DNA of 64,000 nucleotides from positions 1 to 64,000 of the forward strand of contig JAOTOL010001235.1 of the NCBI GenBank assembly GCA_034440575.1. Direction: 5' to 3'. A program made the translations under genes and the position numbers. This document shows, piece by piece, positions 452 through 42,764 of this stretch (positions are counted from its first letter, which is position 1; each line of letters begins with the position of its first letter). The notes beneath the pieces are model-generated. The model was not told where the DNA came from, did no database searches, and saw only the letters and a list, made by a program, of their open reading frames with translations. Source of the stretch: Imbricaverruca yamaguchii. Taxonomy: Eukaryota > Arthropoda > Thecostraca > Neoverrucidae.

Positions 452-509
452 GCAGGACATGGGGGATGTAGCTGATAAAGCATAGCAAGCAATGGAAGGA
501 ATAATTTAT

Positions 510-12872: not shown

Positions 12873-13639
12873 AAAAAAGGTAAAAAAAAAAAAAATTCTT
12901 AATGGAGTTCCCAAGGGGCCGAAGGAGGGAAAAAAGGTTCATTAATTTTTTAAAAAAATTTAAAAGTGGCCTAAGCAGTAAAGTTTTGAAATTTGCAGAT
13001 GATTTGAAGGTCTTTAGGGCAATAACAGGTCAGGATGAGCATATCTCTCTGCAAAAAGACTTAGACGAACTTGTGAAGTGGTCCGAAGAATGGCAAATGA
13101 AATTTAACTTTGATAAGTGCAAAATCATGCATGTAGGTAAGCAGCATATGAAGGCTCCATACTTGATGGGTGGCCAAGTGCTATCAGTGACTCAACAGGA
13201 GAAGGATTTAGGTGTTATTCTAAACACAAAATTGGGGGCATCAGAACAGACCAAGGAAGCCAGGAAGAAGGCACTGAGAATGCTCGGGGCAATAAATAGG
13301 AATGTATCATACAGAAGTGAGGAAGTGATCAGGAAGCTTTACTGTGCATACGTCAGGCCACATTTGGAATACTGCATCCAAGCTTGGTCTCCTAGCTATG
13401 AAAAAAGATTGTTGGCTTTTAGAGAGAGTACAAAAAGAGGGCTACAAAAATGGTTAATGGCATAAGCAACCTGGCATATGAGGAAAGATTGAAGAAAATT
13501 GAATATGTTTTCACTTAGATATAGAAGGCTGAGAGGAGATCTCATCGAGGTCTTTAAATTTGTCAATGGTCTGGAGAGGGGATACCTTGGGAAATGTTTG
13601 AATTTAACAGAAATGATGCAATTAGATGTCATAAATTCA
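12175..13639 (+). other. Inverted, progressively corrupted copy of CR1 copy B (likely fold-back artefact)
   Basis: This segment is the reverse complement of about 13935-15400, the body of the minus-strand LINE. Close to the fold (13000-13639) identity is nearly complete apart from homopolymer indels and a few substitutions (it reads FADD where copy B reads FVDD). Moving outward, bases are increasingly replaced by A while landmarks keep order and spacing: AGACTTTATTAAC at about 12736 against GACTTTAGTAAGG, TTTCAAAA...GGGGAAAGGG at 12494-12520 against TTTTCAAGAAAGG...GAGGGAAAG, and ACCCCTTTCCACCTTTTT at 12664 against ACCTCTTGGACTTTTT. The A-rich tract is therefore not poly(A) or simple-sequence biology. 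The encoded pieces (12902-13465, 13499-13723) are LINE RT C-terminal sequence. Confidence 0.8.
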
Positions 13640-16565
13640 AAAAGACATAAAAGACATAAAGACATAAAGATTAGTGCAACTCTGAGCCACAAGGGGCCTT
13701 CTTGGTTGCACTCTGTACACTGAACCAGTTGCCCACCAAATCTGCCAATCAGCCTCCCTGTAATACTGAAAAGCAAGCCCTCTATTCTTATAATGATTGT
13801 CTATGCTGTTTTTAAAGATGTTCAATGTGCTGCTACTGACGATGTTTTTTGGCAGCTGGTTCCAGTGTTCCACTACCCTGTTGGTGAAGAAAGTTTGCCC
13901 TTAACCTTGTTCTGCTGTGGTTAATTTTAATTTGGAATTTATGACCTCTAATTTCATCATTTCTGTTAAATTCAAACATTTCCCCAAGGTATCCCCTCTC
14001 CAGACCATTGACAAATTTAAAGACCTCGATGAGATCTCCTCTCAGCCTTCTATATCTAAGTGAAAACATATTCAATTTCTTCAATCTTTCCTCATATGCC
14101 AGGTTGCTTATGCCATTAACCATTTTGTAGCCCTCTTTTTGTACTCTCTCTAAAAGCCAACAATCTTTTTCATAGCTAGGAGACCAAGCTTGGATGCAGT
14201 ATTCCAAATGTGGCCTGACGTATGCACAGTAAAGCTTCCTGATCACTTCCTCACTTCTGTATGATACATTCCTATTTATGCCCCCGAGCATTCTCAGTGC
14301 CTTCTTCCCTGGCTTCCTTGGTCTGTTCTGATGCCCCCATTTTGTGTTTAGAATAACACCTAAACCCTTCTCCTGTTGAGTCACTGATAGCACTTGGCCA
14401 CCCATCAAGTATGGAGCCTTCATATGCTGCTTACCTACATGCATAATTTTGCACTTATCAAAGTTAAATTTCATTTGCCATTCTTCGGACCACTTCACAA
14501 GTTCGTCTAAGTCTTTTGCAGCGAGATATGTCATCCTGACCTGTTATTGCCCTAAAGACCTTCAAATCATCTACAAATTTCAAAACTTTACTGCTTAGGC
14601 CACTTTCAATGTTATTTACAAATATAATGAACAGTAATGGCCCTAGTACTGACCCCTGGGGACTCCACTAAGAACATTTTGCCATGATGACTTTGTACCA
14701 TTTAGCATCACTCTTTGCTGTCTATCTGAAAGCCACAACTCTATCCATTTTAAGATGCTACCTGCAATACCATGGGACTGAAGCTGTATCATTAACCGTT
14801 TATGGGGTACCTTGTCAAAGGCCTTACTAAAGTCAAGATATGCTACATCAACCTGATTTCCCTGATCAAATTGTTCTGTGGCGAAGTTCAAAAAGTCCAA
14901 GAGGTTTGTGAGACACGATCGTCCTTTTCTAAATCCATGTTGAGTATCTTGAATCAATCTGCTACCTTCCAGATAACTAACTATTCTATCCTTGATAATT
15001 GATTCGAGTACCTTGCAGACTAGGGATGTGAGACTTATTGGCCTATAGTTTTCAACTTTCCCTCTTTCTCCTTTCTTGAAAATAGGAACTACATTTGCCC
15101 TTTTCCAATCGGTTGGAATTTCATTATGTGAAACTGATCTACAAAATATTATACTAAGTTCCTTTTCAGTTTCCCGCAACACCCTAGCATAAATATCATC
15201 AGGTCCTGCTGCCTTATTAGGCTTTATTTTCCTGATGTGATTGTAAACAACATCACTACCAATGAAATCAACATCATTTGTCAGATCCCATGTAACTGAA
15301 CTATGGTGTACGGTCGGCAGATTGGTCATATCTTCCAATGTAAACACTGATTTGAACTGCTTGCTCAGCTCCTCAACCATCTCACTATCATCACCCAATG
15401 TAGTCCCGTTTACTTCCAGTGGACCAATTGTGCTAGAAACTTTACTCAGCTTGTAGAAACTAAAGAACTTTTACTGTCCCCATTACAGTTTCTAGCTAAA
15501 TCCAGTTCCTTTGCTCGCTTTGCTGCTCTGGTTTTTTGCTTCACAGTGTCTCTAGCTTTTCGATACGCCTTTAGATTAATGACATTTGAGGCTTCTTTAA
15601 CAACTCTAAATGCAGTTTTCTTAGCCCTAATTGCTTTTATCACGTCTGGTGTAAGCTATGCTGGCTTTCCTACCCTTCTTTTGCGTCTTTGCTTTTGGGG
15701 GACATGTCTAATCTGAGTTTCCTTTAAGTAAGATTTGAACTTTTCCCACATTTCACAGGCATTTAAATTGGAGAATTCTTCTTCCCATCTGATGGCACTT
15801 AAAGCCGCTCTCATGCCGTTAAAGTCTGCTCTGTTGAAATTTGGAACCTTTACCAAATTATCCTTGATAATTTCCCTTACATGTGCCTTGAATCTAACTA
15901 TGTGATGGTCACTTTTTCCCAGAGTTTCGCCTACAGTCAAGTCTTGAACCAAGTCACTTAAATCCGAGAATACAAGGTCCAAGAATGAACCATGCCTGGT
16001 AGGTTCCGATACAAACTGGTGTAAGAACAGGTCCTCTTCAAGGCATTTCCTGAACATTTTGCATGATGGGGAGCCAACACCAGCATTTTCATAACCTTTT
16101 AGATTAAAGTCACCGAGAATAAGGTACTTCCTCTTAAAGTTTCTACTGATTTCCTCACAAATCACCTTGTCAAGCTCCAGTTGCTGAGAATGTGGCAGGG
16201 TTCCTGATCGGTAGAAAGCTCCTATCCTAAGAGTATTGCTGTTGCCCTTTTCCCACAGTGACATCAAGCCAAATGGACTCCACAGACACATTTTTATCCC
16301 CACCTGCTACTTTTTGAGAACTGAATAAGCTATTCACATAGAGCATTACACCACCCCCTTTCATTGCTGGACCCCTATTGCACGAAAACATATTGTATCC
16401 CTGGATCTCATAGTCCTGTAAGTTATCTCCAAAATATCCTTCACTGACCCATGCCTCCGTAATGCAAACAAAATCCGGTTCCTCCTCAGCAACATAACAC
16501 TTGAACTCATCAAATTTGGAGCGGATACTCTGAGCATTAAACATCATACACTTAACAAATGCTAT
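13639..16565 (-). mobile_element. CR1-type LINE, copy B
   Basis: A minus-strand element runs from about 16565 to an 8-bp-type tail (TCTTTATG units) at 13639-13670. Just before the tail it shares GGCCCCTTGTGGC-like sequence with copy A, so both belong to one family lineage. ORF1 is absent: the copy starts at the ORF2 N-terminus, so it is 5' truncated. Its 3' 300 bases form the loop of the large inverted repeat with 12175-13639. Confidence 0.88.
13660..16547 (-). pseudogene. CR1 ORF2 remnant: endonuclease and reverse transcriptase
   Basis: The order on the minus strand is endonuclease (ITEAW at about 16465, LGDFN near 16115, SDHHIV near 15905), a linker, then reverse transcriptase: KPNKAAGPDDIYAR (15210), NYRPISLTSLVCKVLE (15040), DFSKAFDKVPHKR (14820), SGVPxGxY (14650), FVDD (about 14575; the usual FADD has a substitution), and the C-terminal AYVRPHLEYCIQAWSP (14210). 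Frame breaks occur near 16250, 15650, 15440, 14650, 14530, 14300 and 13880. It is non-functional, though several breaks are single-base indels in homopolymers and could partly be sequencing error. Confidence 0.88.
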
Positions 16566-17954
16566 TAAGTGTAGTCATTCGTCGCACCGTGTCGTACTCC
16601 AGCAAGCTGTTCAGAAATCACATTAATTTTATGAGTAAAAGGTCGAACTCATTTTCTTGGAGCGGCGCCAATGCGAAAGCACCTGGAGTGGCACCTCTGG
16701 CTACAAAATTCGATTGGGCACCTATGGCTGCAAAACTCGAACTGGTGGGTTCGGGAAGGGGCTGAGTGCAAAGCGTCTTTCATTCCAAGGGATATCGTCT
16801 TATTTCATAGGAGCGCCTCGGCGGAAAAAAAATTCGAACTGGTACACTGGAACTTTTTCAAAGGGACACCTTTCCCCGGCCTATGAGACGCCACCTTCCA
16901 CGTGTGGAGCACATACCCTCAGTGCCAGACCCTTTATCCGCCCCTTATCCCCTTCCTCCTAGCCTAACTTTGCCGAACGTAAAAATATAATGATATTTTT
17001 ATCACCTTTTTAAGTGACTGATGACGTTAGTGCTAGTCGCGTAACAACCTGTCTTATTTACATGTAACAAGCGCGTCGTTTTCGTTGACATTGAACCTTG
17101 AAACTGTGAACTATACAGTTTTGGAAGATTACTTGTTTGTGGTGGTGAGTGGGTGTCTTCATATTTTTGATAAAATATGCACTTCAGAGTAATTCTGAAT
17201 GTTTTGTTCTTTTTTTAATGCAATGCTTATTAGCGTGGTTAGCATAATGTGACCAATCATTCACGCTTCAAACGGATAGTTTTAACCTGCTAGATAAATT
17301 ATTACAGGTGGGGCCACATGTTATCTGTGCAAATGCAATTTTTACAGCTTTTTTTGAACAGTTAAAAATTTCAACTTTGAAAAGCTAAACTAACCTAACG
17401 TAACCAAACCTAACCAGTATGTTTGCTTTATGGAGGCAAATTTATTCAAAACTTTTCTTGTTAACACCTTAAAGCACAATAATAACAAAGTTTCCCAAAA
17501 TTAACACAAGCAAAAAACAAATCCTTCAAAAGTGGCTTGAGTTAGGTCAGGCTGAGTGGTGTTTTTCTAATTTAAAAAAATATAATGAAATAAATTGCTT
17601 GAAATATAAAAAAAATTGTATTAAACCACATTATAGGACAAATTTATCATCCATTGTCTTCATCACATTCATAAGCATGGCATTCTGACTTTTTAGAACA
17701 TGTTTTGGATGTTGGCTTTGGGAAAAATTTACAAGAAAAGGAGTTGTAGGTGGGTAATATAACATGAAAATTAATGCTCAAAGGGAAGAAAAAGGGTAAA
17801 TGTGGAGATGAAGGTAAATTTTGATTTTTGCATTTTTTTTTAATGAAGTGCTTTTTGACATTAATAAGACAGTGCCAACACTTATTTTATCTGCAAATGA
17901 TTACTTTTCAATCAATGGAGGTTGATACAATTGATGACATCATAAGCACATACC
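16566..17954. other. AT-rich, CpG-poor spacer without a recognised gene
   Basis: Open frames at 16559-16962 have no recognisable motif. From about 16950 the DNA becomes strongly AT-rich. Short CTAACCTAACG-type runs occur near 17380-17415. No RNA gene seen. Confidence 0.5.
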
Positions 17955-20861: not shown

Positions 20862-23800
20862 ATAACTTGCCAGATTCAGAATGGGAAAAAGTGCAAAAGC
20901 AAAGAAAGAAAAGAAAGCAGATTTCTCTAAAGTAAAGCTTAAAGTTGGGAAAAAGCTACCAAAAGGTCAGAACTTAACTGATACAAGCTTCAAATCAAAG
21001 AAAATCATCATCAGCAGTCAACTTAAGCAGACTGAAGGTGAACCCCTCACAAGAAGAAAGCTTAGTTTGAAGGTAGGTAAGCATGCATAATGATGAATGT
21101 TGTGTACATATATGTTTAAAATTGTGAACCATGTTTTTAGAACAACTTATTGGCTGCCATATTTAATAACATGATTAAGATGATGTGCCCACTCAATTAT
21201 GTTGCAAATGCTTGTTTCTCACTTGGTAAAATTCTTGTAATTCCTCTGTTGCAACATGACTAATTGATATCCTCCCACCAGTGTATCCTCTCAGTGCCCA
21301 CAGGCCAGACTGCAAAGCATGGCACTTTCAATGAGATCTTGTTAGTACAGGGCAGGTGAGCAGAGGTGAGGATGGTGCCGAGGACAAGCACCTGGTACAG
21401 GCAGGCTGCTAATCCACTAACACTTCACACACAGCTTGAAAAATCAGAAGAAAATCACAATTGGAGAAAACTTCAAAAGCAAACAGAGCATACCATATTT
21501 ATCTCTGTTGCTTGCTGCCAAATTTGTTTACTGCTAAAGCCCTGTTACCAAATGCATTTATGTGTCCTAAATGGTTAAACATGGTATGGTGAGAAGTACA
21601 GAAGCCTTCTTGTGCTTTAATTATGTCTCTGTGTAATTTCGTATTTATTTGATGTGAAAAATGTGTATGTAGAAAAGGCATTTGCCTTAAGTCTCCTGAT
21701 TTTCTTACCTGGTGCATTTTTTAATTTGATGCATGTATTTTATCTTTCTGGTGCAGTATTTTCGCCCTGCTGACGAATTTCGGTGCATATTTTTCACAGA
21801 AAATCCACTGTGCTATGCTTTGCAGGATAGCCTGCAGACCATATCACATGGAGCAAACCACTTCAGTTGGAAAGACAATAGCATGACTGAACTGCATACT
21901 GGTGGGATTCTTCCAACAAACTTGTATAACTTAATGTGACATGGCAGAATCAAAGGATATGGAACACATTTGGCTAGCATCAAGGGACTGGTACAAATAG
22001 TTCAGCCCTTCTGCTGCAAAGTAGAATAAGGTTATGTAGCGCTGAATGGGAAATTATAGCAAATTTATGTTTTAAGGTCTTTTATGAATTCTTGGGATTT
22101 GTCTATGGTATGTTCATGAATATCATATATGACTACTAATTTTCTCTGCAAATGCTTGCTTTTTTGTTGGCAGATAACACCAACAATTGGCTTCCAGTTT
22201 GATAACATATAAAAACAGTGCTTAAAATAATGGTAAATATATAGAAGCTGCTAGGTTAATTTTTCATCCCAAATATGTTTTTCTGGTGCTTTCTGATGCC
22301 ATTTCATTGAATATGAAATTCACCTCATACAATACAACCAGTTCACGTTCGCTATATGATCAGCATGGTCAATGCGCCCAAAAGCCAGTTCAAGTTGAAG
22401 TACTTTTGTCCCAGTAAGTGGTCAGTTCACCAAGAAAAGAACATCAAATTGTATTCAAGTAGGAATGAAAACACCAGAAAAACTTTTTTTTTAACCATGC
22501 AAATACATGTTACCCCTCTTTTCCTCACAAAATATGGGGAAATGTTGGGCAGAATATAGGATTGACACCTTCTTGCCCATTGCTATTCTGAGTCATTGTG
22601 TGTAGCTTCTTCTTTTTTTTTGGGGGGGGGGTCAAATCTAGACCTACAATCTAAAAATGAAGCATGAGTATTTCCAGGTATGGCTGTGACTTTGACATTG
22701 ACATCATCTTGGTGATCAGACAAATCCCAGTCACCGAACAATGCCACATGCATCACTATGCAGCACCAGCTGGCCGTTGGTGGCGTCTGCGCGGGCCATC
22801 ACTGTGGCCGCGACAGTCACCGACCTGGTTTGTTTGTTCGTTCACTGGGTGGTTCTCGGCGCACTCTATGCACGATTACGGCTAATGGCGCCGCCCACAC
22901 TGTTTCGCCGGTGGGCCACGGGATTGGAAATGTTTGTCGGTCACCGAGCGACAGGGATAAATTATTCGTGAAATAGGATGGAATATACCACTTTCTGAAC
23001 ATCCAATCGACATCCTGATCCTCGATGAGTGCTTATGAAGTCCTTGTGTTTCCTTTCGCTATCGATAAGGAATGATGATACACAAACATTTCGCAACACA
23101 ATTTCAGGTGATTATATGTGATGCGATATGGCATATAATACCAGTTTATAGCATGGGTATAATTTTCTCTATCCAGAATATAGCTCTTCCTAAATCATAA
23201 ATCCGAAAACAAATAATAGGTACAGTCATGAATGCCTAAACCATTTGTTCAAACTTGAGTCTGAAGGGTGTCAAAAGCATTTAAAATGACACTAACTCCA
23301 AGCCAAATTTCGACATCCAACTGTGCTTGTTCCGATATCCCACACCTTATGAAAAACCAATATTTCAACCCTGCCGAGCGAACATTGCGACACCGTGGCG
23401 CGCAGGAGCTGCTCTCCCACCTGCGGCACCACAGCGTGCACGTGCGCCAGGACGGCCTCAACGGCGTGCGGGAGCTGCTGACGTCGCACGGCGAGCTGGC
23501 CGAGCCGGCGCTCGGCCAGGTGCTGTCGCCTCTGGCCACCCTGCTGCTCGACGAGGACCCCAAGCTGAGGAAAAGCGCCGTCTCCGTCATATCGGACGTC
23601 GTCGCGCAGGTGGGTCTCCATCAAGCACAGCCGAGCGGTCGTCGGTCAGGCGGGAGGATGGGCAGACGTGACAGGTGTGATGGCTTTGGACACAGCCAAG
23701 ACGTCTTTGGCTGGCTTGCAGACTGTGATGTACAGACAACATGGTATCGGTCATCGGATGCGGCCGAGACGCTATTTGTTGCTATTTATAAAACTAATAT

Positions 23801-26800
23801 GGACTGACGACTTTGAAGAAATATGATTGTTCCTCGTTCGGTGGACGCGGTATGGTATTCGTGCTGAGGTAAGTATCCAACGTGGTCTGATGAAGTCCAG
23901 CTACACGGCCGATATATATTGAAAATATATTGAGGTGAGATGCCTATTGAGGTGAGCAAATACCTCACCAAGTTTTCATATGACATGGTGGACAATCAGT
24001 CATTGATCGGCATGGCACTGAAGGAGCCAATTACGTGTAAGCTGCCCTGTCAAGTTAAAAAAATATTTCGCACAGCCTCCGTGTATGAGATAAGCAATCA
24101 ACTTCAGAAGTGAGCGCCAACCAACGCTGTTTCCCCTCTACGTTCGTGACCCACTTGTCCTGACACGGCCTTCTCGCAGGTGACCGAGGACCAGCTGGCG
24201 CCGTTTTTCCCCGCGCTGGTGACGCACCTGACGTGCGCGATGACGCACATCGGCGCGTCGGTGCAGCAGACGGCGCTGCCGCTGCTGGCCGCGCTGCTGG
24301 GCCGGTTCCCGCGGCTGGTGGCGACGGCCGTCGACCAGGTGCTGCCCACCCTGCTGGAGCAGATCTCGCGCTGCGGCTCGTCCGGCGCCGGCCGCGCGCT
24401 GCTGGCCGACCCGGCCACCCAGCTGTCGACCACCGGCTGGCGGGTGACCGTGCTGCGTCAGCTGGCGCAGGTGGGTCGTGTCTGGCGAGGTCGTGTCGAC
24501 TGCGTCACCCGCTGACCCAGCTGCTGGCCGCCCAGCCTTGGCGGCAAACCCGCTGCTGAGTGGTACCCCGTGGCAATGCTAAATGAATTGTTCGTCGTTA
24601 GGTGTGACATGTTGAAACGGGTGCTGTAGGATGTAGAAATTCGCCATGGAAACGATGTCATTTAACGGAAATTGCAAGATCTTCGAACAAAATTCTGATC
24701 CAACAACCTACTCACGCATGCACCTCTTTCCTTTGTTTTCAGATATCTACTTTAAGGGTATCTATTCAGATATCTATTTTAGCACTAGCAATACGAAATA
24801 CCTGTCGTCATCAACTGATACTGTATAACAGACCACATCATAGGCAATCCATGTTCCTGGAATTTTACTACGGGATGTTTGTGCATCCCAATGCACAGTA
24901 TTGAGTATCAGCATGCTACTTATCAAGAAGGAACTGTTGGAAATTCGATATGGAGACTGCATAACTCATCATGAAGCAGGATGTCGATGCTCCGTTGGGA
25001 GGGATGTCAATTCAGTGTTCAGAATGTGCCGTATTCCACCCTGTTTGACAGCAAATTTACCACTGCCCGGTGGTGACCCGCTGACCCGCTGACCCGGTGA
25101 CCCGCTGACCCGGTGACCCGCTGACCCGGTGACCCAGGTGCTGGCCACCCAGCCCGAGCTGGAGGACCGCTCCGTGGCGGCGCCGCCGACGGTGCCGGCC
25201 GCCGCCTACTGTCCGCTGTACGGGCGGCCGGCCGAGTCGGCTGTGCAGGCGACGGCCGCCGTCGGCCTCGAGCGGCGTCTGCTGACCGAGCCCGCCCAGC
25301 TGCGGCGGTACGCGGCCACCGTGATGCCCCTGCTGTTCGACACGTACCGCGAGGTGGCGCCGCCCGCCGACACAGACGGTACGACACGTACCGCAGGCCG
25401 CCGATACAGACGGTACGACACGTACCGCCGGCTGCCGATACAGACGGTACGACACGTACCGCGTGATACAGACGGGCACTACACTAGCCGCTGGTGCAGA
25501 CGGTACGACACGTACGCCCTGATACCGGTACACGTACCGCGATACGACACACCGCTGATACAGACGGTACGACACGTACCGCCGGCTGCCGACACAGACG
25601 GTACGACACGTACCGCCGGCTGCCGACACAGACGGTACGACACGTACCGCCGGCTGCCGACACAGACGGTACGACACGTACCACTAGCCGCTGATACAGA
25701 CGGTACGACACGTAACACTAGCCGCTGGTGCAGACGGTACGACACGTACCGCCGGCCGCCGACACAGACGGTACGACACGTACTGCCGGCCGCTGACACA
25801 GACCGCCATCCGCCGACACAGACGGTACGACACGTACCGCCGGCCGCCGACACAGACGGTACGACACGTACCGCCGGCCGCCGACACAGACGGTACGACA
25901 CGTACCGCCGGCCGCCGATACAGACGGTACGACACACACCGCCAGCCGCTGATACAGACGGTACGACACGTACCGCCGGCTGCCGACACAGACGGTACGG
26001 CACGTACCGCCAGCTGCCGATACAGACGGTACGGCACATACCACTAGCCACTGATACAGACGGTACGACACATGCCGCTAGCCGCCGATACAGACGGTAC
26101 GACACGTACCGCTAGCTGCCGATACAGACGGTGCGACATGTACCGCCAGCTGCTAATACAGACGGTACGACACGTACCACCAGCCGCTTATACAGACGGC
26201 CAACCGCCGACACAGACGTTACGACACGTACCGCCAGCCGCTGATACAGACGGTACTACACATACCGCCAGTGCAGACACAAACACCGGTGTAGACGGCT
26301 CGCGCTTTAGCTGTGAGCAGCACGGCGTCTCATGTCAGGGGGCCGGCGTTTGGTGCGTCTGTGTGTGGGTCCGATATGTGGGGACGGGTCGGGCTTGTGG
26401 TGTACGTGGAGACGGATCAGACGTGTTGTATGTGGGGATTGGTCAGATAATGTGTTGTATGTGGGGATGGGTTAGGGATGTGGGGGATTGGTCTGGGATA
26501 TGGTGCACGTGGGGAGGGGGTCGGGAATGTATGTCAACATGATAGTCTAGTCTATGGTGCAGGTCTAATCTAGTCTATGGTGCAGGTCAAAGCTGATATA
26601 TGGCAGACACACTGCGATGGGCTGACAGATTAGAGCGGTCTCACACACAGCCAGGCTAGACGAGCACGTGATAGGAGGAGAGTGGGGGGGGCTAGGTGTT
26701 CCTCTCGTGTTGTCATCTCTCTGAATTGCAGCATCTTCTTCCAGATGAATCGATAGAGGCTCGGACGGAGTGACGGTCGGGTGGAGTGTTAACGTTGTCT

Positions 26801-29800
26801 CCTGAACGTGCAGGCAGTCTTCTCTCAGACGAGGCGGCGGAGACGCTGGCGGTTGTGCTGCAGGTGATCGTGGAGCTCCTGCGGCATCTCAAACACCTGG
26901 ACGACACCAAACACACCACTCTGGTGAGGGACGGCACAAAATACACCACTCTGGTGAGAAACGCTATCAAGCACACTACCAGTATGGGCTAAAGTCCAGA
27001 AGAAGAACATTGGGTTGTTTTACAACGTATCTGACAGCAGGGTCATAGTGCGTGGACAACCTCTCACGCACTCTATGTCTTCCGTGCTTTATGCACAGGA
27101 TTTGACACTGCAACAAGAGAGTGCATGCACAGATCGACGGAGGTTGGCTCCCTTGGCAGCGCTCCGTCAAGACATGCGCCTGGTTGCGTCCAATGTTCGC
27201 GGACGTCCAGCAACAGTTGTTCCATAAGCGGATGGCGGCTCGGCATGTGTGGTGATTGTTGTGTTGTTACAATAACCGGTAGTAGCTCGGCATGTGTGGT
27301 GATTGTTGTGTTGTTCCATAAGCGGATGGTGGCTCGGCATGTGTGGTAATTGTTGTGTTGTTACAATAACCGGTAGCAGCTTGGCATGTGTGGTGATTGT
27401 TGTGTTGTTACAATAACCGATGGCGGATCGGCATGTGTGGTGATTGTTGTGTTGTTACAATAACCGATGGCGGCTCGGCATGTGTGGTGGTTGTTGTGTT
27501 GTTACAATAACCGATGGCGCCTCGGCATGTGTGGTGGTCGTCATGTTGTTTCATGAGCGGGTGGCGGCTCAGCACATGGCTAAAATAATGGTTTTTCGTT
27601 AGTGTGAGATGTCGAAACGGACACAGAAGGATGTCAAAATTTGCTTCGGAATTAGTGTCAATTAAAGTGTTTTTGATGTCTTTCGGACTCAAATTTGATC
27701 CAATGGTGTAGGCGCTTACAACCGTACTTTTGCCATTTCCTTTGAGATTCATAATTTAGGAAGACCTGTATTCGGGACAGGGAGAAAATTACTTATGCTA
27801 TAAATTGGTACTGTACGCCATATCACATAGTTAATCCCTTTTCCCGTAAATTACGTTGCGAAATGTCCGTGTATCACCATTCCTTGTTAGGAGCATTGAC
27901 ATGATGCATATAAGCGAGATACTGCTAGAAAGGAGACACGAAGACTTCATAAGCACGCATCGTGGAGCAGGATATCGACGCTTCTTGGAGAAGGATGTCG
28001 ATCGAGTGTCCAGAAAGTGGTATTTTGCACTTTATTTCATGAATAATTTATAATTGGCTCAGCATGTGTGGTGATTGTCGTATTATTACAATAATCCATG
28101 GCGGCTCAGCATGTATGGTGGTTGTACTGTTCCATTAATGGGAGCGTCTGGGCAGATGTGATGGTTGTTGTATTGTTACAATAACCGATAGCGACTTGGC
28201 ATGTGTGGTGATTGTTGTGTTGTTACAATCACCGATGGCGGCTCAGCATGTGTGGCGGTCGTTATGTTGTTCCATCAGCGGGTGGAAGCTCGGCCCGTGC
28301 AGTGGTTCTGGTGCTCCGTTGACGTGGCCGGCCCGGCAGGTGTGGTGGTTGTTGTGTTGTTCCATCAGTGGGTGGCGGCTCGGCCCGTGCAGTGGTTCTG
28401 CTGCTCCGTTGACGTGGCCGGCTCGGCAGGAGTGTGGCTGTGTCGTTCCACTGACGGGCGGCGGCTGGACAGGTGCGCTGGTTCACCGACACGTACCGGC
28501 CCGACCTGCACCGGCACGTGCTGGCGCCGTTCCCCTACTCGCGGCTGGTGGGGCGGCGCACCACGACCGCCTCGGACTCGCCCGGCGGCGCCGACATCGG
28601 CAGCGACTTCATCAACGTGCTGGCGTGCGAGCTGGCGGCCGGACTGGCCGCGCCCGCCGGCGCCGCCGCGCCCGGCCCGGCCCCCCGCACTGGTGTCCTG
28701 CAGTACCTGACAGGTGGGCGCGAGGCGGGTGGGACGGTTACGGTCCAGAGGTGAGACGTGGTGCTGCCGGGCAGGCGGATGTGGGTGGTTCTAGCGGCTA
28801 GAGGCGGGACAGTTACGGTCCAGAGACGAGATGTGGGTCAACCGGGCAGGTGTATGTGGGTGGTTCTAACGGCTAAAGGTGGGACAGTTACGGCTCAGAG
28901 ACGAGATGTAGGACTATCAGGCATTTGGATGTGGGTGGCTGTCAGGGTTGAAAAGATAGACTGTGCCTTGATGTCTCACGTGGAAGGGTCCTCTCATTTA
29001 TCCTCTCATTTTTATCATGTGGAGGTTGAGTGGTGCTGTTTGACAATGAACTACTCTGTGGTTAAAGTGCTGAAGATTTACTGTAGAGTGCGACCTAAAA
29101 CTCTGATGTTGCAGGTTTGAATAAAATATTATCTTCATAGTCGATTAGTCGAAAACAAACTCATCTCCACCTCCATGATTGCAAAATAGAAATACGACCC
29201 CGTAGAGACCGAGCTGGGTGCTCGCGGTAGCTCGGTTGGTAGAGCGTCGGACTCTTGTTCCCAAGATTGTGAGTTCGAATCTCACAGCCGACGGCATTTA
29301 CTGAGTCTTCCCGCGACCAATCGGCGTGAGAGGTTGGCGACGCTGTATGGCCTAGCGGTTGAATGTGGCGTAAAAGAACCCAAGAGCCCGAGCTAGGACA
29401 GTTGGAGAATGTCCAGAGATAAGGCGTAACACTGTCCGGCAGGTGGTAGCGGTGGCTGTAGTTGCCTGGGTGGTGTATGATATATTTGACAGGGGTTGCA
29501 CTACCAAAGGTGTGCTCTGAGCGTTTCCTGTGCGACTCGAGTGGATCAGCCGGTGGAGGAACTATGGATGTGCATATTGTCCAGTCATGAAAACTGGAGC
29601 ATTCCGCTCAAGTCCATGCACACTTTTGCACCAATTGTATACTTACATCTGTGTCTATAGCTAATGGTGAAGGTGAACACAATGCGTTGGTGCTACGTAT
29701 GCATTATGCACGTTCTAGAATTGTTGGCCCAGCTGGATTTTCTTAGTCTAGTGCTCGTCCTAGCTGTGCAGCAGAATGTCGCGTAATGTTTACACATGCA

Positions 29801-32800
29801 GGCCTTGATACCAGCACACAACGACCGTGCAGGCAACTCGTCGGGACGCTATTCTCCATGTAGCATTAAAATGAGTGCAGTGCTGCAAACAAAAGTGGTG
29901 GGATTATCCGACATGGTCAAAGCAGGTACCTCGGTTCGAGCTGGTGCCGTCTCCCTGGAGCGCCATTAGCCGTGCTCGTGCATAAAGTGCGTCGAGAGCC
30001 ACCCAATAAGCAAAAAGTCTCTCCCTGGTCTGTGTGCGTTCCTACCAGGCTATGTACATTGTCGCCAATGCCTCTCCCCAGGCTCGCACGTCAAGTAATC
30101 GTTCTCCTATATTACATTGTGTTGCCCCAACTTCCAGCCCCGACTCTTCGTCAAGTATCTGTCCCCCTGACAACGTTAGACTGTTCTCAGTCCCTCTGAC
30201 GGGTGTATGTCCCCACACTACGTTGGACTGTCCCTCAGTCCCTCTGGCGGGTGTATGTCCCCACACTACGTTGGACTGTCCCTCAGTCCCTCTGGCGGGC
30301 GTTTTCCCCGGATTACGTTATGGTGTCTTGCCGTCCCTCCGGCGGGTGTCACTCTCCCGGATTACGTTATGGTGTCTTGCCGTCCCTCCGGCGGGTGTCA
30401 CTCTCCCGGATTACGTTGGACTGTCCCTTCGTTCCTCTGACGAACGTCTGTCTCAAAGTCTGTCTTGGACTCTCCACCTGTCCCTCTCACTGATGTCTGT
30501 CCTCCGGACTGCGTTAGACTGTCACCCCGTACCCATGACGGGCGACTATTCCGCGGACTGCGTTCAACTGTCCTTCGTCTCTCTGACGGACGTTTGCTTC
30601 AAGTGTTGTTTTGGACTGTCTTCCCGTCTCTGACGGTTGTCTGCCTCAGACTACGTTTGACTCGCGAGTGATCAACTCTGGTCGAAGCGCCCTAAAGCCC
30701 AAATAGCTCCTCATCCTTCTGACGGTCGTCTGCCCCAGACTACGTTAGACTGTCTAACTGTCCCTGTGACGGTCGCTCCCCCGGAGTATCTCGGACTGTA
30801 TTCCCTTCCCCTTGGCGGTCGCTTGTGCCCCAGCCTGCCTATGGTGGCCTGTGCCCCAGCAGACGTGACGGTCGCCTGTGCCCCAGCCTACCTGACGGTC
30901 GCCTGTGCCCCAGCCTACCTGAGGTCGCTGTACCCCAGCCTATCTGACGGTCGCCTGTGCCCCAGACCTGACGGTCGCTGTGCCCCAGCCTACCTGACGG
31001 TCGCCTGTACCCCAGCCTATCTGACGGTCGCCTGTGCCCCAGCCTACCTGACGGTCGCCTGTACCCCAGCCTACCTGACGGTCGCCTGTACCCCAGCCTA
31101 TCTGACGGTCGCCTGTGCCCCAGCCTACCTGACGGTCGTCTGTGCCCCAGCCTACCTGACGGTCGCCTGTACCCCAGCCTACCTGACGGTCGCCTGTGCC
31201 CCAGCCTACCTGACGGTCCCCTGTGCCCCAGCCTACCTGACGGTCGCCTGTGCCCCAGCCTACCTCACGGTCGCCTGTACCCCAGCCTACCCGACGGTCA
31301 CCTATGCCCCAGCCTACCTCACGGTCGCCTGTACCCCAGCTTACCTGACGGTCGCCTGTGCCCCAGCCTACCTGACGGTCACCTATGCCCCAGCCTACCT
31401 CACGGTCGCCTGTACCCCAGCTTACCTGACGGTCGCCTGTGCCCCAGCCTACCTGACGGTCGCCTGTGCCCCAGCCTACCTGACGGTCGCCTGCTCCCCA
31501 GACTACCTGAGCACTGACAGATGCAGCGAGCTGGCACGTGTGTGCCGGGTACTGCGGCGTCTGTTGCGGCGCCCCGCGGCCCTGGCAGGCGGAGCCGGAG
31601 CCACCTCCGACCTGGACGTCGAGGCCCGCCATCAGCGGCTGGCCTGTGTGCGGGCGGCGGCCGAGCGACATGGCCGCGTCCGGTGTGCCGAGCAGGCGAC
31701 TGCGCTCACACAGCTGCTCACCGACGTCGTCTGGCAGGCTGATGCGGCTGATGTTGCTGGGTGAGTGGTGGGCTGACACAGCTGCTCACCGACGTCGTCT
31801 GGCAGGCTGACGTGGCTGATGTTGCTGGGTGAGTGGTGGGCTGACACAGCTGCTGACCGACGTCGTCTGGCAGGCTGACGCGGCTGATGTTGCTGGGTGA
31901 GTGGTGGGCTGACACAGCTGCTCACCGACGTCGTCTGGCGGGCTGACGTGGCTGATGTTGCTGGGTGAGTGGTGGGCTGACACAGCTGCTCACCGACGTC
32001 GTCTGGCGGGCTGACGTGGCTGATGTTGCTGGGTGAGTGGTGGGCTGACACAGCTGCTCACCGACGTCGTCTGGCGGGCTGACGTGACCGGTTGGACCGT
32101 GCTAGCACAGACAGCCACACACGTGCTGCCATCTGTCAGCTATCAGTCAACACATGCCCTTTATGTAGCTTACATTCGCCTACCGACATCATTCCTGCGA
32201 TCGTCGTATGTAGTGAAAGTTGCCACCCTTCCATTTCGCTCTTTATTGATAAAAACTGCGGATTAAGAACTAGCGTATTGCCTGACACGGGACGAATCCA
32301 ATAATATTATATAACGACGCTCAGGCTCATCTGAGGGCCGTTTAGGCTAGTCAGCTTGGGGTGGCCCGGTATTGTAGGGCCCGGGTGTCTACACTGAGCC
32401 CCGGCTGGCGGGGTGGCCCGGTACTCTGTAGGGCTCGACAGTAGGGCTGCCGTGACGGGAACACGGCTGCAGTTGTGCCCTTGGAGTGGAGTTCCTGGAC
32501 GGGGCGCTATGTTCAGGATCCGCACAAGCTGTGCAGAGCTTTGACCCGATCCTGTAAACCACCCGGGTATACATCAGCGCAGAGTTGGTTCGAAGAGCGA
32601 TGGGCGTCTCAGAATTGCATGTCTTGATGCCCGGCAGTTCGTGATCTCTCCTGTGCCACATCTGCCCATCGAACGGGAAAATAAAGGCAGTGAGACAGTC
32701 GTGGTGGTGGCATGCGGTACCCACACTAGCAGTGACCTATGTCATCCATGTAGGTCCATCATGATAGCTATGCAATTGCGTTGTTTTTGAATACCTCTGA

Positions 32801-34919
32801 TTTCGCACAAGCCTTGCCACCCAATCACCTGCGGTAAGTGCAGCGAAATTGTGTACCAATCTGGCATGCAGTTGAACTGAATACAATACAGATGAACTAT
32901 GCGATGGTATTCCCTGTGAAATAGTCACCAAATGAAGCAGGGCCGACAATAAACCGACTAACCATGTTTGTTCGTGTCAGTCGCTACAACTCGTTTCACC
33001 ATTTAAAATCGGTTTTAGTTAACCCAAGCTTATGCCAATTGCCATATCAAAGTTCAATTTCTCTAAATCTGCTAAGAGGTCAAAAAGAGACCCATTAACC
33101 TCGTCATAACAACGGGAATGGGGCTGCCCTGCATCATTGCATCCAGAAATACAAGTGGAGGTTATGCAAAATGGCCCATAATTCCAGAAAGCTCAGGAAG
33201 AAGAGGTGACTTTGACCAGGCGGGGCTTTTCTAACCGGGAAAGGGAATCTTGTAATGTATAGCGACATGACAGTCAGATAAATTATGCATGTTTTGCTCT
33301 CGTTTTAGTGAACTTGATATCTGGGCGCTGTATGACCCAACGGGTCGATGCGCCCTGAAAGCCCAATAACCAACGAAGAGTCTGGATGACTGGAAGTGTG
33401 AATGCACGTTCTGTATATTTACCTATACAAAGCGTATATAATGGGAAGGGACGGTTTCAGGGTAGACAAGTAGGCAGTATTGTAAGATACAGGCTCTGAC
33501 GAAATGTTAATTGATGAAAAATCTAAATACAAAGTATAATAGTGTTGCTTATGTGCATGCTTGGTGAAATATAGGTGTTCACTGTTTGTCATGCCAGGCA
33601 TAGGATTGTTTGTTTGTTTGTTTAATGCGTGGTTTTCGACGCAATTTATGCACGATCACGGTTAATGGCGCCGCCCACAGTTTAGCCGGTGGACCGCTGG
33701 ATTGGAAAATGTTCCGAGTGGTGCAAGTGTTGAACCCGGGACCTTTGGCACCTAGAGCTCAACACTTAACACTTGGCCCCCCCGCTCCATATAGGATTGT
33801 TTGAAGTGGACGTTGAAAATAATTTTCATCGTGTATCATAGCTGATGGCAATCATGGAGAAGGTGTCGAAAACAATGAATTACTGCGCATCTTGTGGCCA
33901 ATCCCATCGCTGACAGTAGTCTCATGTGCTTCTGAAGAAAATACAAAAATGTTCAAAATATAACCAATGCACCTGAAGTTATATTTGGCCTACTCGACTA
34001 CATGTCCGAGCATGGGCATGTTCTATTACGCCACTCGCCCCTCCCCCACCCTCCCCCGTGATGTGACTCGGTGGATCCGTCTATGATCAAATTTATTGAT
34101 CTGAAAGTACAAATCAAGCCGAATGCCTCATGGCAGTGATCAAGTAGTGACCGTCTTGCAAAGCAAGCAAAAATGTGCAGTTCACCTTCCAAAGTTGCCC
34201 GCCCTGTCACCTACCTCAAACCGCCTGCTATTTTTGGTCAAGTGCGTGGGTACAATTCAGTGTTAGGTACAATTATGCTCACCCACCCACTACGCTCCAC
34301 AAATTATACATTTGATCAGCTTTTTTGCCATCCCTCCCATCTTTAGTTAGCCTGGGTACGCTCATGGTTTTTTTTTGCGCATATCGGGACGGTGTTGACC
34401 GTCCTGACCTGTGCAAGGTCAGACCTCAGGTCGAGGTATTCACCGTCCTGACCTGTGTTAGATCGGACCACAGACTGAGGAGTTGACCGTCCTGACCTGT
34501 GCTAGGTCCGGCCCCAGACTGAGGAGCTGACCGTCCCGACCTGCGGCAGGTCTGACGCGGTCGCCGACTGGGCCGCTCAGCTGCTGCCCTCCGTGCGGTT
34601 CCGCACCAGCGACCTGGGCCTGCTGGTGCTGCTGCGCAGGATTGCCGTCATGGGCTGCGGCCAGTTCATCGGCGCTCTGAAGCGAGACGCCGCCAACCTG
34701 CTGGGCACTGCTGTGGCCGCCGCCAACCACGCCAGCGCCGTGCCGTGGCAGCGCGCCATAATTGAGCTGCTGTTTTGGCAGACAGATGTCTCTGCTGACG
34801 CCCAGGCTGCCTTTCAGCAGCTTCTCGCCTCCGAGCACGTCGGCGAAGCTGTGAAAGTGTACGCGCTTGAAGTGCTGGGTGATAAGTATGTGCCGGTGTC
34901 AGTGGATGTGGTCGGCTAA
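20862..34919 (+). CDS. Tex10: TEX10/Ipi1 homologue (whole gene span, 8 coding exons)
   Basis: The spliced product, about 635 residues, follows the vertebrate TEX10 order: a basic N-terminus with DFxKVKLKVGKK, a HEAT-like helix block (VRQDGLNGVRELL...DEDPKLRKSAVSVISDVV), DQLAPFFPALVTHLTCAMTH, a MPLLFDTYREVAPP helix, and RWFTDTYRPDLHRHVLAPFPY. TEX10 is part of the nucleolar PELP1-TEX10-WDR18 complex (yeast Rix1-Ipi1-Ipi3) acting in 60S subunit maturation and ITS2 processing. All seven junctions have GT/AG ends and matching phases (0, 0, 0, 1, 0, 1, 2). Vertebrate TEX10 is about 930 residues; the C-terminal third is not found, so the gene either ends early, has exons I cannot recognise, or is broken. 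Introns hold SINEs, three copies of one unclassified repeat, and many minisatellites, several built from the splice junctions themselves. Exons 2-8 are very GC-rich; exon 1 is AT-rich. Confidence 0.85.
20881..21072 (+). CDS. Tex10: TEX10 exon 1
   Basis: The ATG at 20881 opens a Lys-rich N-terminus (MGKSAKAKKEKKADFSKVK) continuing LKVGKKLPKGQNLTDTSF, closely matching the conserved TEX10 start. It ends AAG|GTAGGTAAG, phase 0, 64 codons. A good acceptor (TTTATTGCAG) ends at 20861, 19 bases before the ATG, so a 5' UTR intron is likely. Codons end mostly in A or T, unlike the other exons. Confidence 0.88.
22827..22933 (-). mobile_element. SINE family B, 3' part
   Basis: On the minus strand it carries the conserved body GCGCCATTAGCCGTAATCGT and GCATAGAGTGCGCCGAGAAC, ending in a (CAAA)-type tail at 22827. 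The tRNA-like head is missing. Confidence 0.7.
22958..23366 (-). repeat. Interspersed repeat X, copy 1
   Basis: The reverse complement matches 27575-28050 and 24580-25065 over more than 350 bases (shared blocks include GACTTCATAAGCAC, TTGCGAAATGT, ATCATTCCTTAT and TAGTGTCAnTTnAAnTG). No coding frame and no clear terminal repeats, so its class is unknown. It ends about 40 bases before exon 2. Confidence 0.75.
23406..23609 (+). CDS. Tex10: TEX10 exon 2
   Basis: Acceptor GGCGCGCAG, donor CAG|GTGGGT, phase 0 at both ends, 68 codons. It encodes ELLSHLRHHSVHVRQDGL and DEDPKLRKSAVSVISDVV, the Ipi1/TEX10 HEAT-like repeats. Codon third positions are almost all G or C. Confidence 0.88.
23610..24179 (+). 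other. TEX10 intron 2
   Basis: About 570 bases with no repeat array at either junction and no recognised element, unlike the later introns. Confidence 0.6.
24180..24470 (+). CDS. Tex10: TEX10 exon 3
   Basis: Acceptor CTTCTCGCAG, donor CAG|GTGGGT, phase 0, 97 codons. It reads VTEDQLAPFFPALVTHLT and CAMTHIGASVQQTALPLL, aligning with the TEX10 segment that runs QISPFFPLV...SAMTHI, and ends GWRVTVLRQLAQ. Confidence 0.87.
24580..25065 (+). repeat. Interspersed repeat X, copy 2
   Basis: It matches copy 3 at its start (GTTAGGTGTGACATGTTGAA) and end (GAAGCAGGATGTCGATGCTC and GTGTTCAGAATGTG). The middle is the most diverged of the three copies and contains local duplications of AGATATCTAnTTT. Confidence 0.65.
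25072..25137 (+). repeat. 8-bp tandem array abutting exon 4 acceptor
   Basis: About eight units alternate GCTGACCC and GGTGACCC; the last becomes GGTGACCCAG and supplies the AG of the exon 4 acceptor. Confidence 0.85.
25138..25378 (+). CDS. Tex10: TEX10 exon 4
   Basis: Acceptor GTGACCCAG at 25137; donor ACG|GTACGA after 25378, phase 1. It encodes VLATQPELEDRSVAAPP then TVMPLLFDTYREVAPPADTD, aligning with the TEX10 helix that ends in EAVPP. The last bases (GCCGACACAGACG) and the donor are the first unit of the 34-bp array downstream, so donor choice is inherently ambiguous; this one is chosen because phase 1 fits exon 5. Confidence 0.8.
25341..26278 (+). repeat. 34-bp minisatellite carrying copies of the exon 4 donor
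   Basis: About 26 units of consensus GATACAGACGGTACGACACG plus TACCGCCGGCTGCC. The exon's own end (GACACGTACCGC...GCCGACACAGACGGTACG) is the founding sequence. Every unit repeats ACG|GTACGA. The embedded GGTACgacacGTACC is a small palindrome. Since 34 is not a multiple of 3, all three frames on both strands stay open for hundreds of bases, giving spurious ORFs such as 25129-26115. Confidence 0.9.
26279..26813 (+). other. Rest of TEX10 intron 4
   Basis: Degenerate GT-rich units (TGTTGTATGTGGGGAT and similar, 26340-26520) are followed by unique sequence to the exon 5 acceptor (GAACGTGCAG). Confidence 0.6.
26814..26923 (+). CDS. Tex10: TEX10 exon 5
   Basis: Acceptor CGTGCAG; starts with two bases completing the exon 4 codon, then SLLSDEAAETLAVVLQVIVE and LLRHLKHLDDTKHTTL. 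Donor CTG|GTGAGG, phase 0. It aligns with the TEX10 helix LQVMQQVLNII-like region. An equivalent donor 30 bases downstream (CTG|GTGAGA after 26953) would add ten residues in frame. Confidence 0.8.
26904..26993 (+). repeat. 30-bp x 3 repeat over the exon 5 donor
   Basis: ACACCACTCTGGTGAG occurs at 26913 and 26943, with a weaker third copy at about 26973. Each of the first two contains the donor. The period is a multiple of three, so the frame stays open until a TAA just after 26989. Confidence 0.8.
27205..27565 (+). repeat. 47-bp minisatellite, block 1 (intron 5)
   Basis: Units of 47 bases around GGCTCGGCATGTGTGGTGAT and TGTTGTGTTGTTACAATAACC, some with TTCCATAAGCGG in place of TTACAATAACCG. 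The same array resumes at 28055 after repeat X, so X probably inserted into it. Confidence 0.85.
27575..28050 (+). repeat. Interspersed repeat X, copy 3
   Basis: The most complete copy, flanked on both sides by the same 47-bp minisatellite. It ends CAGAAAGTGGTATTTTGCAC and TTTATTTCATGAATAATTT. Non-coding. Confidence 0.8.
28055..28472 (+). repeat. 47-bp and longer minisatellite, block 2, running into the exon 6 acceptor
   Basis: It continues block 1, then changes to about 100-bp units holding GGGTGGCGGCTCGGCCCGTG and CAGTGGTTCTG. The real junction GGGCGGCGGCTGGACAG|GTG followed by CGCTGGTTCAC is clearly the last, diverged unit: copies at about 28280 and 28370 repeat the acceptor and first exon codons. 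Confidence 0.75.
28473..28713 (+). CDS. Tex10: TEX10 exon 6
   Basis: Acceptor GGCTGGACAG; reads VRWFTDTYRPDLHRHVLAP and FPYSRLVGRRT, matching the TEX10 LRKNY...FPYVL region, then DIGSDFINVLACELAAGLAA, an Ala-rich loop and VLQYLT. Donor ACAG|GTGGGC, phase 1. Confidence 0.85.
28730..28940 (+). repeat. About 68-bp x 3 array after exon 6 donor
   Basis: GGGACAGTTACGGTCCAGAG recurs at about 28732, 28806 and 28873, with GGGCAGGTGTATGTGGGTGG-type segments between. The CAGGTG core resembles the exon 6 donor but the relation is weaker than for the other exons. Confidence 0.75.
29222..29395 (+). mobile_element. tRNA-Lys-derived SINE (family A), near full length
   Basis: The head has a tRNA A box (TAGCTCGGTTGGTAGAGC), an anticodon loop CTCTTGT that would give CUU (Lys), and a perfect T-arm around GTGAGTTCGAATCTCAC. 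The acceptor stem does not pair, so it is not a working tRNA. The body CCCGCGACCAATCGGCGTGA and tail GGTTGAATGTGGCGTAAAAG recur at 61525-61705 and as tail pieces elsewhere. Confidence 0.8.
29396..30169 (+). other. TEX10 intron 6 spacer with a SINE family B remnant
   Basis: Mostly unique sequence. At 29927-30012 a family B SINE with an internal deletion keeps a B-box-like GGTTCGAGCTGG and the 3' end GCGCCATTAGCCGTGCTCGT. Confidence 0.65.
30170..30790 (+). repeat. About 48-bp degenerate minisatellite
   Basis: Units of the type TCCCTCTGACGGGTGTATGT then CCCCACACTACGTTGGACTG, period 47-48, becoming more diverged toward 30790. Open frames at 30034-30633 arise from it. A family A SINE tail (GTCGAAGCGCCCTAAAGCCC) interrupts it at about 30681. 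Confidence 0.8.
30820..31501 (+). repeat. 27-bp minisatellite carrying copies of the exon 7 acceptor
   Basis: About 25 units of GCCTACCTGACGGTCGCCTG plus TGCCCCA. Each unit contains CTGTGCCCCAG|CCTACCTGA, the same structure as the true junction CTGCTCCCCAG|ACTACCTGA at 31501/31502. The frame encodes the nonapeptide AYLTVACAP and is open from 30766 right into exon 7. Confidence 0.92.
31502..31760 (+). CDS. Tex10: TEX10 exon 7
   Basis: It starts with AC completing the exon 6 codon, then YLSTDRCSELARVCRVLRRL, aligning with the TEX10 LNSKQLNRLLG-type helix, and ends TQLLTDVVWQADAADVAG. Donor CTGG|GTGAGTGG, phase 2. The acceptor at 31501 was preferred over GACAG at 31519 because only it keeps phase. 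Confidence 0.8.
31700..32091 (+). repeat. 68-bp tandem array duplicating the exon 7 end and donor
   Basis: The last 60 bases of exon 7 plus GTGAGTGG are the first of six units, at exact 68-base steps (31708, 31776, 31844, 31912, 31980, 32048). Five units keep GCTGG|GTGAGTGG. Units are over 95 per cent alike by eye, so the expansion is recent. Confidence 0.93.
32092..34396 (+). other. Rest of TEX10 intron 7
   Basis: Unique sequence with a family A SINE tail at about 33312-33378 (GGGTCGATGCGCCCTGAAAG) and a family B SINE at 33605-33788. No open frame with a motif. Confidence 0.65.
33605..33788 (-). mobile_element. SINE family B, near full length
   Basis: On the minus strand: a decayed A box (GGCCAAGTGTTAAGTGTTG), B-box GGGTTCAACAC, the shared body GGCGCCATTAACCGTGATCG and a (CAAA)n tail at 33605-33625. 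Confidence 0.8.
34397..34549 (+). repeat. 44-bp x 3.5 array running into the exon 8 acceptor
   Basis: GACCGTCCTGACCTGTG begins at 34397, 34441, 34485 and 34529, exactly 44 bases apart. The last unit gives GACCGTCCCGACCTGCGGCAG, the exon 8 acceptor; the third gives GTGCTAG|GTCCGG, also acceptor-like. Confidence 0.9.
34550..34919 (+). CDS. Tex10: TEX10 exon 8 (last recognised)
   Basis: It begins with one base completing the exon 7 codon, then SDAVADWAAQLLPSVRFRTS and LLVLLRRIAVMGCGQFIGAL, aligning with the TEX10 segment after the central HEAT region. The frame stops at 34917-34919. Donor-like sites lie just before (CTGG|GTGATAAG after 34878; TAA|GTATGT after 34885), so the exon may splice onward to exons I cannot identify. 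Confidence 0.72.
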
Positions 34920-41415: not shown

Positions 41416-41734
41416 GGCCTGGCCCGGCACTCTTACGGCGCCACCTGCCCCCCCCCCCTCTCCCCCGGATCGCGGCCGTTGCACGGCTGCGGCCGCGTCA
41501 GTAAGCGGTGTGCGGTTGTTGCAGACCACTTGCAGCGCTGTCGATGGGCGGGCAGCACGCGCCGGCGCGTGCCGTGGCCCCCGGCGGCCAGGTGCGGCGG
41601 TCGCATCGCGGCCGCAGCCACACCACAATTAAACACAATCAAACACGTCGGACACGCGCGTGCTCATCAGAGGGAAGTGCTCCATGCCGGCCTGGTGGTC
41701 AGGCGAGCGGCAGCCGGCCACAGCGACACTGACC

Positions 41735-42606
41735 ACTGACCACCGACCACCGACCATGGACCATGGACCATCGACCACCGACCACCGACCATCGCACCAC
41801 CGACCACCGACCACCGACCACCGACCACCGACCACCGACCACCGACCACCGACCACCGACCACCGACCACCGACCACCGACCACCGACCACCGACCACCG
41901 ACCACCGACCACCGACCACCGACCACCGACCACCGACCACCGACCACCGACCACCGACCACCGACCACCGACCACCGACCACCGACCACCGACCACCGAC
42001 CACCGACCACCGACCACCGACCACCGACCACCGACCACCGACCACCGACCACCGACCACCGACCACCGACCACCGACCACCGACCACTGACCACCGACCA
42101 CCGACCACCGACCACCGACCACCGACCACCGACCACCGACCACCGACCACCGACCACCGACCACCGACCACCGACCACCGACCACCGACCACCGACCACC
42201 GGCCACCGACCACCGACCACCGACCACCGACCACCGACCACCGACCACCGACCACCGACCACCGGCCACCGACCACCGACCACCGACCACCGACCACCGA
42301 CCACCGACCACCGACCACCGACCACCGACCACCGACCATCTACCACCGACCACCGACCACCGACCACGACCACCGACCACCGACCACCGACCACCGACCA
42401 CCGACACCGACCACCGACCACCGACCACCGACCACTGACCACGACCACCGACCACCGACCACCGACCACCGACCACCGACCACCGACCACCGACCACCGA
42501 CCACCGACCACCGACCACCGACCACCGACCACCGACCACCGACCACCGACCACCGACCACCGACCACCGACCACCGACCACCGACCACCGACCACCGACC
42601 ACGAAC
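41735..42606. repeat. Heptanucleotide (CCACCGA)n array
   Basis: About 120 units of the 7-mer with a few variants (GCCACCG, CTACCACC, single-base slips) run 870 bases. Seven is not a multiple of three, so every frame on both strands is open, giving PTTDHRP or WSVVGGR repeats. The minus strand is G-rich (CGGTGGT). Confidence 0.97.
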
Positions 42607-42764
42607 ACTGACTAACGACACCGATCACTGATCACCAATCACGGACAATCTACCACCGACACAGAGCCGATACCGACAATCGACCGCTGAGCACTTACCA
42701 CCGAACACCACCGACCACCGACACAATCATTGCCATATTTTCAGGTATGAAACACCTGAAACAA

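Follow-up and report, generated by a model that had tools for sequence, protein, structure and literature searches.

Mirage-like tandem arrays at exon-intron borders of the TEX10 homologue and other genes of the barnacle Imbricaverruca yamaguchii

Junction-spanning repeats in other animals

Tandem repeats that extend over exon-intron borders have been described in amphioxus as mirages, in the Adh3, globin, troponin C and PGBD5 genes. According to the available parts of the two reports, they comprise many copies bearing AG/GT, differ in length between haplotypes and leave regular splicing undisturbed (PMC3087553, PMC3902484). The preliminary description of the locus studied here had called its pattern undescribed, a claim that the amphioxus mirages, as these parts present them, overturn. 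Like mirages, the barnacle arrays are built from a unit that runs from the exon edge over the splice signal into the intron; they occur at donors and acceptors, carry splice dinucleotides in their copies and differ in copy number between haplotypes, in our case apparent ones. Unit lengths of 10-72 bp are given there for amphioxus Adh3 and of 150-160 bp for the globins (PMC3087553, PMC3902484), compared with 20-102 bp for the junction-straddling arrays of the barnacle. Thus, in the features tested (exon-spanning unit, splice dinucleotides and length difference), the barnacle arrays have mirage anatomy. Unlike the amphioxus reports, the present analysis concerns a barnacle, draws on genes that were sampled without choosing for arrays, measures an excess at junctions and includes a single array of 148 copies (9.4 kb). 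Somatic instability has reportedly been observed at the amphioxus Adh mirages.

Human segmental duplications contain variable internal tandem repeats, some of them at exon-intron borders, which are described as altering gene structure (PMC2812944). The expansion of a minisatellite at an exon-intron border is common to both systems; however, the accessible text places about half of the human repeats in the coding sequence of recent paralogues and discusses the border cases as novel introns (PMC2812944), whereas the barnacle arrays sit in conserved genes that retain their exon structure. The Rogers model, cited in the available part of PMC3087553, derives new introns from the tandem duplication of AGGT-bearing exon sequence, and thus also involves a tandem duplication with splice signals inside, but it predicts alike intron ends, which are absent here. 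The minisatellites of earthworm metallothionein genes are described as intronic, with nothing on junction units in the accessible text (PMC12783039), and the available part of the Capitulum mitella genome paper gives 3.53% repeats and nothing on junctions. Among the titles and abstract openings searched, neither a report of junction repeats in barnacles nor a previous measurement of any junction bias of such arrays turned up. As far as this literature goes, mirages were already known from amphioxus, and the barnacle lineage and the measured junction bias are new.

The TEX10 homologue and its arrays

The window, a stretch of 64,000 nucleotides from contig JAOTOL010001235.1, contains on its forward strand a gene whose spliced product, modelled by protein homology, is a TEX10/Ipi1 homologue, with a Pfam Ipi1_N match (E 5.6e-12) and TEX10 chains returned by a PDB sequence search (E 3.3e-24). 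Two database matches for the protein are both from barnacles, Amphibalanus amphitrite (53% identity) and Pollicipes pollicipes (55%), and a search with Amphibalanus TEX10 finds the gene once in the 767-Mb assembly of 1430 contigs. The model comprises eight exons (20881-34919) and 14 splice sites, with GT-AG in every intron and consistent phases, and the residues at the exon joins agree with Amphibalanus TEX10 (e.g., ADTDG/SLLSDEAAETL, YLT/DYLSTDR and KLSLK/ELLSHL, the slash marking the join). The coding part of exon 1 (20881..21072) was placed by the Amphibalanus TEX10 search and by reading of the sequence, and the remaining exons by protein homology: exon 2 (23406..23609), exon 3 (24180..24470; Ipi1_N domain, by Pfam), exon 4 (25138..25378), exon 5 (26814..26923), exon 6 (28473..28713), exon 7 (31502..31760) and exon 8 (34550..34919), which includes the stop codon.

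Graded site by site, 4 of the 14 splice sites are crossed by a tandem array. The exon-4 donor lies in an array of 34/102-bp units (25358..26271; TRF and unit profile) with 21 nt of exon inside, the exon-5 donor in a twofold 30-bp duplication (26899..26958; TRF) with 25 nt of exon inside, and the exon-7 donor in 5.6 copies of a 68-bp unit (31704..32086; TRF) that take in 57 nt of coding sequence. The fourth crossed site is the exon-7 acceptor, where 26 copies of a 27-bp unit (30816..31510; TRF and unit profile) include 9 nt of exon. Each of these units amounts to nine codons, open and in frame with exon 7, and an open frame of 281 codons (30660-31501) runs through the array into the exon, so that splicing at an inner copy would lengthen the protein by multiples of nine residues.

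Two further sites are abutted. At the exon-4 acceptor, the last 8-mer of an 8/16-bp array (25074..25137; TRF row 25074-25135 and sequence reading) ends in the acceptor AG; the TRF row stops 2 nt short, and the repeat unit is without exon sequence. At the exon-8 acceptor, the TRF row of a 44-bp array (34394..34549; TRF and alignment) ends at 34543, 6 nt before the exon; the family of direct repeats, at 77%, extends 7 nt into it. One site, the exon-6 acceptor, is weak: the TRF row of the nearby 47/90-bp array (27216..28441; TRF and alignment), which is interrupted by an element at ~27575-28051, stops 31 nt short of the junction; a degenerate copy alone extends to it, in a gapped alignment with just one of the two upstream stretches that were compared. 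An array of 75-bp units (28731..28938; TRF) begins 17 nt past the exon-6 donor and leaves it uncrossed. Both ends of exons 2 and 3 are array-free, and TRF finds no tandem array in introns 1 and 2.

The preliminary description had placed at least seven of these borders within arrays and the exon edge and splice signal within the repeat unit. Both statements hold for donors 4, 5 and 7 and acceptor 7, with as much as 57 nt of coding sequence in the unit, whereas acceptors 4 and 8 are only abutted, acceptor 6 is degenerate, and the unit at acceptor 4 departs from the proposed anatomy; the array-free state that it assigned to introns 1 and 2 agrees with TRF. It had also regarded the arrays as independent in origin, and they do look independent, because their units all differ (8/16, 34, 30, 47/90, 27, 68 and 44 bp) and because a junction window was found in another gene's intron in 0 of 504 trials. 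Introner-like mobile introns place the same sequence at the junctions of unrelated genes, and were rejected as a candidate on that same count. When arrays were placed at random but confined to introns, 0.03 touched TEX10 sites were expected against 4 observed, and 0.35 sites within 10 bp against 6 (12 sites in both cases, with intron 1 left out). Under a null that leaves arrays free to straddle, 4 of the 13 TEX10 arrays straddle a junction, compared with 0.84 expected (p 0.005).

Other repeats are present in the window. An element of ~450 bp occurs in three diverged copies, at 22957-23373 (-), 24578-25035 (+) and 27575-28051 (+), in TEX10 introns 1, 3 and 5, respectively; the first and third copies are 68% identical, and for the second the identity is 73% over two short pieces. 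The intron-5 copy splits the 47-bp array, and the intron-3 copy ends shortly upstream of the exon-4 acceptor array. A short dispersed repeat starting GTTTGTTTGTT is found at 22828-22899 and 33608-33679 (86%). In intron 6, positions 29228-29285 (+) match a tRNA in Rfam at 39 bits, with no call by ARAGORN, and may represent the head of a tRNA-derived SINE. Open frames at 479-3280 (+), 12884-13462 (+) and 13836-16574 (-) read by eye as pieces of non-LTR retrotransposons; Pfam confirms RVT_1 only for 2287-2808, and two others were scanned without a Pfam match. The part of the window from 36000 to 64000 consists to 24% of tandem arrays (GC 0.61), including 66 copies of a 34-bp unit (51189-53432) and 134 copies of a 7-bp unit (41727-42660).

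Arrays at the junctions of chaperonin and kinesin genes

Two further gene sets, with 56 introns and 112 splice sites, were picked without regard to repeats. The chaperonin set (Pfam PF00118, CCT1 to CCT8) provides 41 resolved introns, with splice sites set by alignment to PDB sequences, one of them (the second of CCT7) depending on a weak alignment. The kinesin set provides 15 introns, with sites set by hand, in five stretches selected for closely spaced exons, and the kinesin count draws on those five stretches only, out of 126 kinesin exon matches. Left out of the counts were the second CCT6 contig (C89, with C1012 taken instead), an HSP60 stretch with two distant exon matches only (C1399), the single-exon matches C1291, C1365 and C207, and one-sided junctions beside unplaced exons. 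Arrays cross 8 of 82 sites in the chaperonins and 5 of 30 in the kinesins, i.e., 13 of 112 or about one in nine, and with the 4 of 14 in TEX10 the total comes to 17 of 126, divided into 10 donors and 7 acceptors. Straddling arrays have units of 20-102 bp, and 14 of the 17 hold at least 10 nt of exon. A kinesin stretch fetched later and kept outside the main counts (L057) has no straddling array at its approximately seven visible sites. A CCT7 donor beside an unplaced exon, also uncounted, looks amplified by eye, and the CCT1 exon matches are divided by ~62 kb on contig C991, which points to a very long intron or a misassembly.

The largest array was found in CCT6, at the donor that follows LLKQADLYISE: 148 copies of 62 bp (9.4 kb) on C89 and 8.3 copies of 68 bp on C1012. 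The flanks of the donor array are 94-95% identical between the two contigs, and the intron measures 10.0 kb on C89 vs 1.2 kb on C1012, a difference made up mostly of copies of one donor. We take the two contigs as apparent alleles, judging from their sequences; they might instead represent a recent duplicate of the gene. The acceptor of another CCT6 exon is repeated as well, with a 76-bp unit present in 6.6 copies on one contig and 6.7 on the other, and stays uncounted beside an unplaced neighbour exon.

The splice dinucleotides are kept in nearly all copies examined. Copies were scanned in 11 arrays, comprising 10 of the 17 straddling arrays and that of the second CCT6 contig, and GT/AG is intact in 225 of 226 junction-like copies from 10 of them, the eleventh having no scorable copy. 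Since the scanned copies had been selected for their likeness to the junction, they were re-examined by unit: profiles were made for six arrays, and the splice dinucleotide could be located in five. The CCT6 profile of ~149 copies keeps the G in 147 and the T in 146, the 27-bp TEX10 array keeps AG in 26 of 26, and the profile at TEX10 donor 4 has two gaps in the T column. Thus, the array copies examined give no sign that decoy splice sites are purged.

The proteins of relatives suggest which copy is used. Spliced through its exon-adjacent sites, TEX10 is colinear with its Amphibalanus homologue, in which no duplicates are present at the exon joins. CCT5 has three array-borne sites, and when the edge copies are used, its protein aligns without gaps to Amphibalanus CCT5 and to two proteins (95% and 93% identical) whose source contigs, 2.1 and 1.8 kb long, resemble barnacle transcripts. 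On the strength of these relatives' proteins rather than of RNA, we infer that splicing in I. yamaguchii uses the edge copy. The annotated TEX10 of Pollicipes reads differently: as a protein, it has ELLSHLRHYSAYVIVALPLQ followed by ELLSHLRHYSAHVRQ, i.e., two occurrences of the exon-2 start at a distance of 20 residues, and the stretch in between reads like an acceptor. The model, in which counterparts of exon 3 and of the beginning of exon 4 are missing, thus appears to contain a read-through duplicate, presumably of the same kind of junction duplication, at an exon-2 edge that is array-free in I. yamaguchii.

Excess of arrays at exon edges and its possible causes

The bias toward junctions is visible only in counts of array starts, because arrays deep in introns span long stretches, and starts were counted because coverage is weighted by array length. 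By coverage there is no excess: arrays cover 17 of 126 junctions (13%), compared with an intron mean of 14%, and the TRF coverage profile gives 13% at the junction, 21-24% at 20-150 bp and 14-17% at 200-400 bp. When 48-bp windows were searched for a second copy nearby (score of at least 20), one was found for 16 of 126 junctions vs 112 of 756 random intron points, for 9 of 252 exon-internal points, and for none of the 504 comparisons with other genes. Counted by starts, 17 of 70 arrays straddle a junction, compared with 5.1 expected if unit-length duplications start uniformly and are free to straddle intron ends, an expectation that uses present intron length and from which shorter ancestral introns would yield a smaller excess. 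A null confined to introns, which gave 8 vs 0.10 at chaperonin sites (zero gap), was dropped as too strict, since it forbids straddling although straddling duplications would be neutral.

Edge density leads to the same result. With TEX10 excluded, 13 arrays have edges within 20 bp of a junction in 4480 bp, compared with 31 in 77962 bp for arrays at least 100 bp deep, a ratio of 7.3x (bootstrap 95% 3.4-13.2) that becomes 7.2x when L057 is added. Together with the 13 crossed sites in the same genes, this supports a recurrence of the TEX10 pattern in other genes of the genome. By set, there are 10 vs 1.3 expected in the chaperonins and 3 vs 0.49 in the kinesins (bootstrap 0 to 36), i.e., the result is carried by the chaperonins, and the kinesin set is small on its own. 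The excess falls mostly within 20 bp of the exon, in part out to 70 bp, and holds for edges inside exons, too. Outside arrays, GC is 0.62 over the first 20 intron bases and has dropped to 0.47 at 150-200 bp, and the arrays themselves are GC-rich (0.56 vs 0.47). An excess of about 5x and 8x persists within the two upper GC classes, to which 15 of the 17 junction-zone arrays belong, on small numbers and in a crude test that compares array GC with tile GC. Local GC does not seem, on these small numbers, to be the whole cause of the bias.

Our preferred reading, to which we assign a probability of roughly 0.72, is that mirage-type duplications are seeded at exon edges, several-fold more commonly than deep in introns, are tolerated there and grow as minisatellites. 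A local tandem duplication would capture the exon end, the splice signal and the intron start; it would be tolerated, and indeed harmless, because the exon-adjacent splice site would still work and be used, the surplus copies being left as intron. The array may then expand and contract like any minisatellite, probably through slippage or unequal exchange. The bias itself is probably mainly mutational, with exon-edge sequence prone to duplication, and part of the excess could stem from retained exon-adjacent DNA or from introns that were formerly shorter.

In a minisatellite-rich genome, splice sites might simply receive their fair share of arrays, straddling being neutral. The equality of junction coverage with the intron mean is what such an absence of preference predicts, as is the abundance of arrays between 36 and 64 kb of the window (24%), where Pfam matched none of the few open frames that were scanned. 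We nevertheless consider it unlikely, given the 17 of 70 straddling arrays, the 7.3-fold edge density and the excess that persists in the GC-rich classes. Alternatively, arrays could originate evenly and persist near exons, where selection on the exon shields the adjacent DNA from deletion and insertion. The elements inserted in the introns, one of which splits an array, would be in line with such shielding, as would the concentration of the excess within 20 bp of the exon and its partial extension to 70 bp. It is rendered improbable, however, by the excess of edges inside exons and by the match percentages: straddling arrays have a median TRF match of 92% (n=17) vs 82% for deep arrays (n=36; p 0.045, a small sample), and, being more homogeneous, do not look like older survivors.

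Selection could also retain copies as spare splice sites for the robustness of splicing, and the intact GT/AG of nearly all internal copies examined fits this idea. We hold it to be very unlikely, since homogeneity throughout the CCT6 array leaves many neighbouring columns conserved at least as well as the splice dinucleotide, 148 donors are beyond any need, and 109 of 126 sites have no crossing array. The creation of introns by tandem duplication of an AGGT-bearing exon segment, proposed for the mirages of amphioxus globins in the available part of PMC3087553, would make the arrays marks of new introns. It strikes us as highly implausible, because the donor and acceptor windows of a given intron resemble each other no more closely than windows taken from different introns (mean local score of 8.8 vs 8.5 across 63 introns).

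A bolder form of the seeding of duplications at exon edges is conceivable, and we put it forward only tentatively: that, in barnacles, tandem duplications have a mutational hotspot at junctions, through transcription, splicing-linked exposure of DNA or the sharp GC step, that they give rise to hypervariable arrays of dozens to more than 100 intact splice sites in housekeeping genes, and that the habit arose separately in amphioxus.

In the available parts of the reports, mirages have so far been known from a handful of amphioxus genes, and their frequency in the barnacle makes an oddity into a process that can be counted. For those who predict genes, the Pollicipes TEX10 model, which appears to include a read-through duplicate, serves as a warning. 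At the same time, the barnacle arrays constitute a natural test of how the spliceosome chooses among many identical sites and of exon borders as hotspots of mutation.
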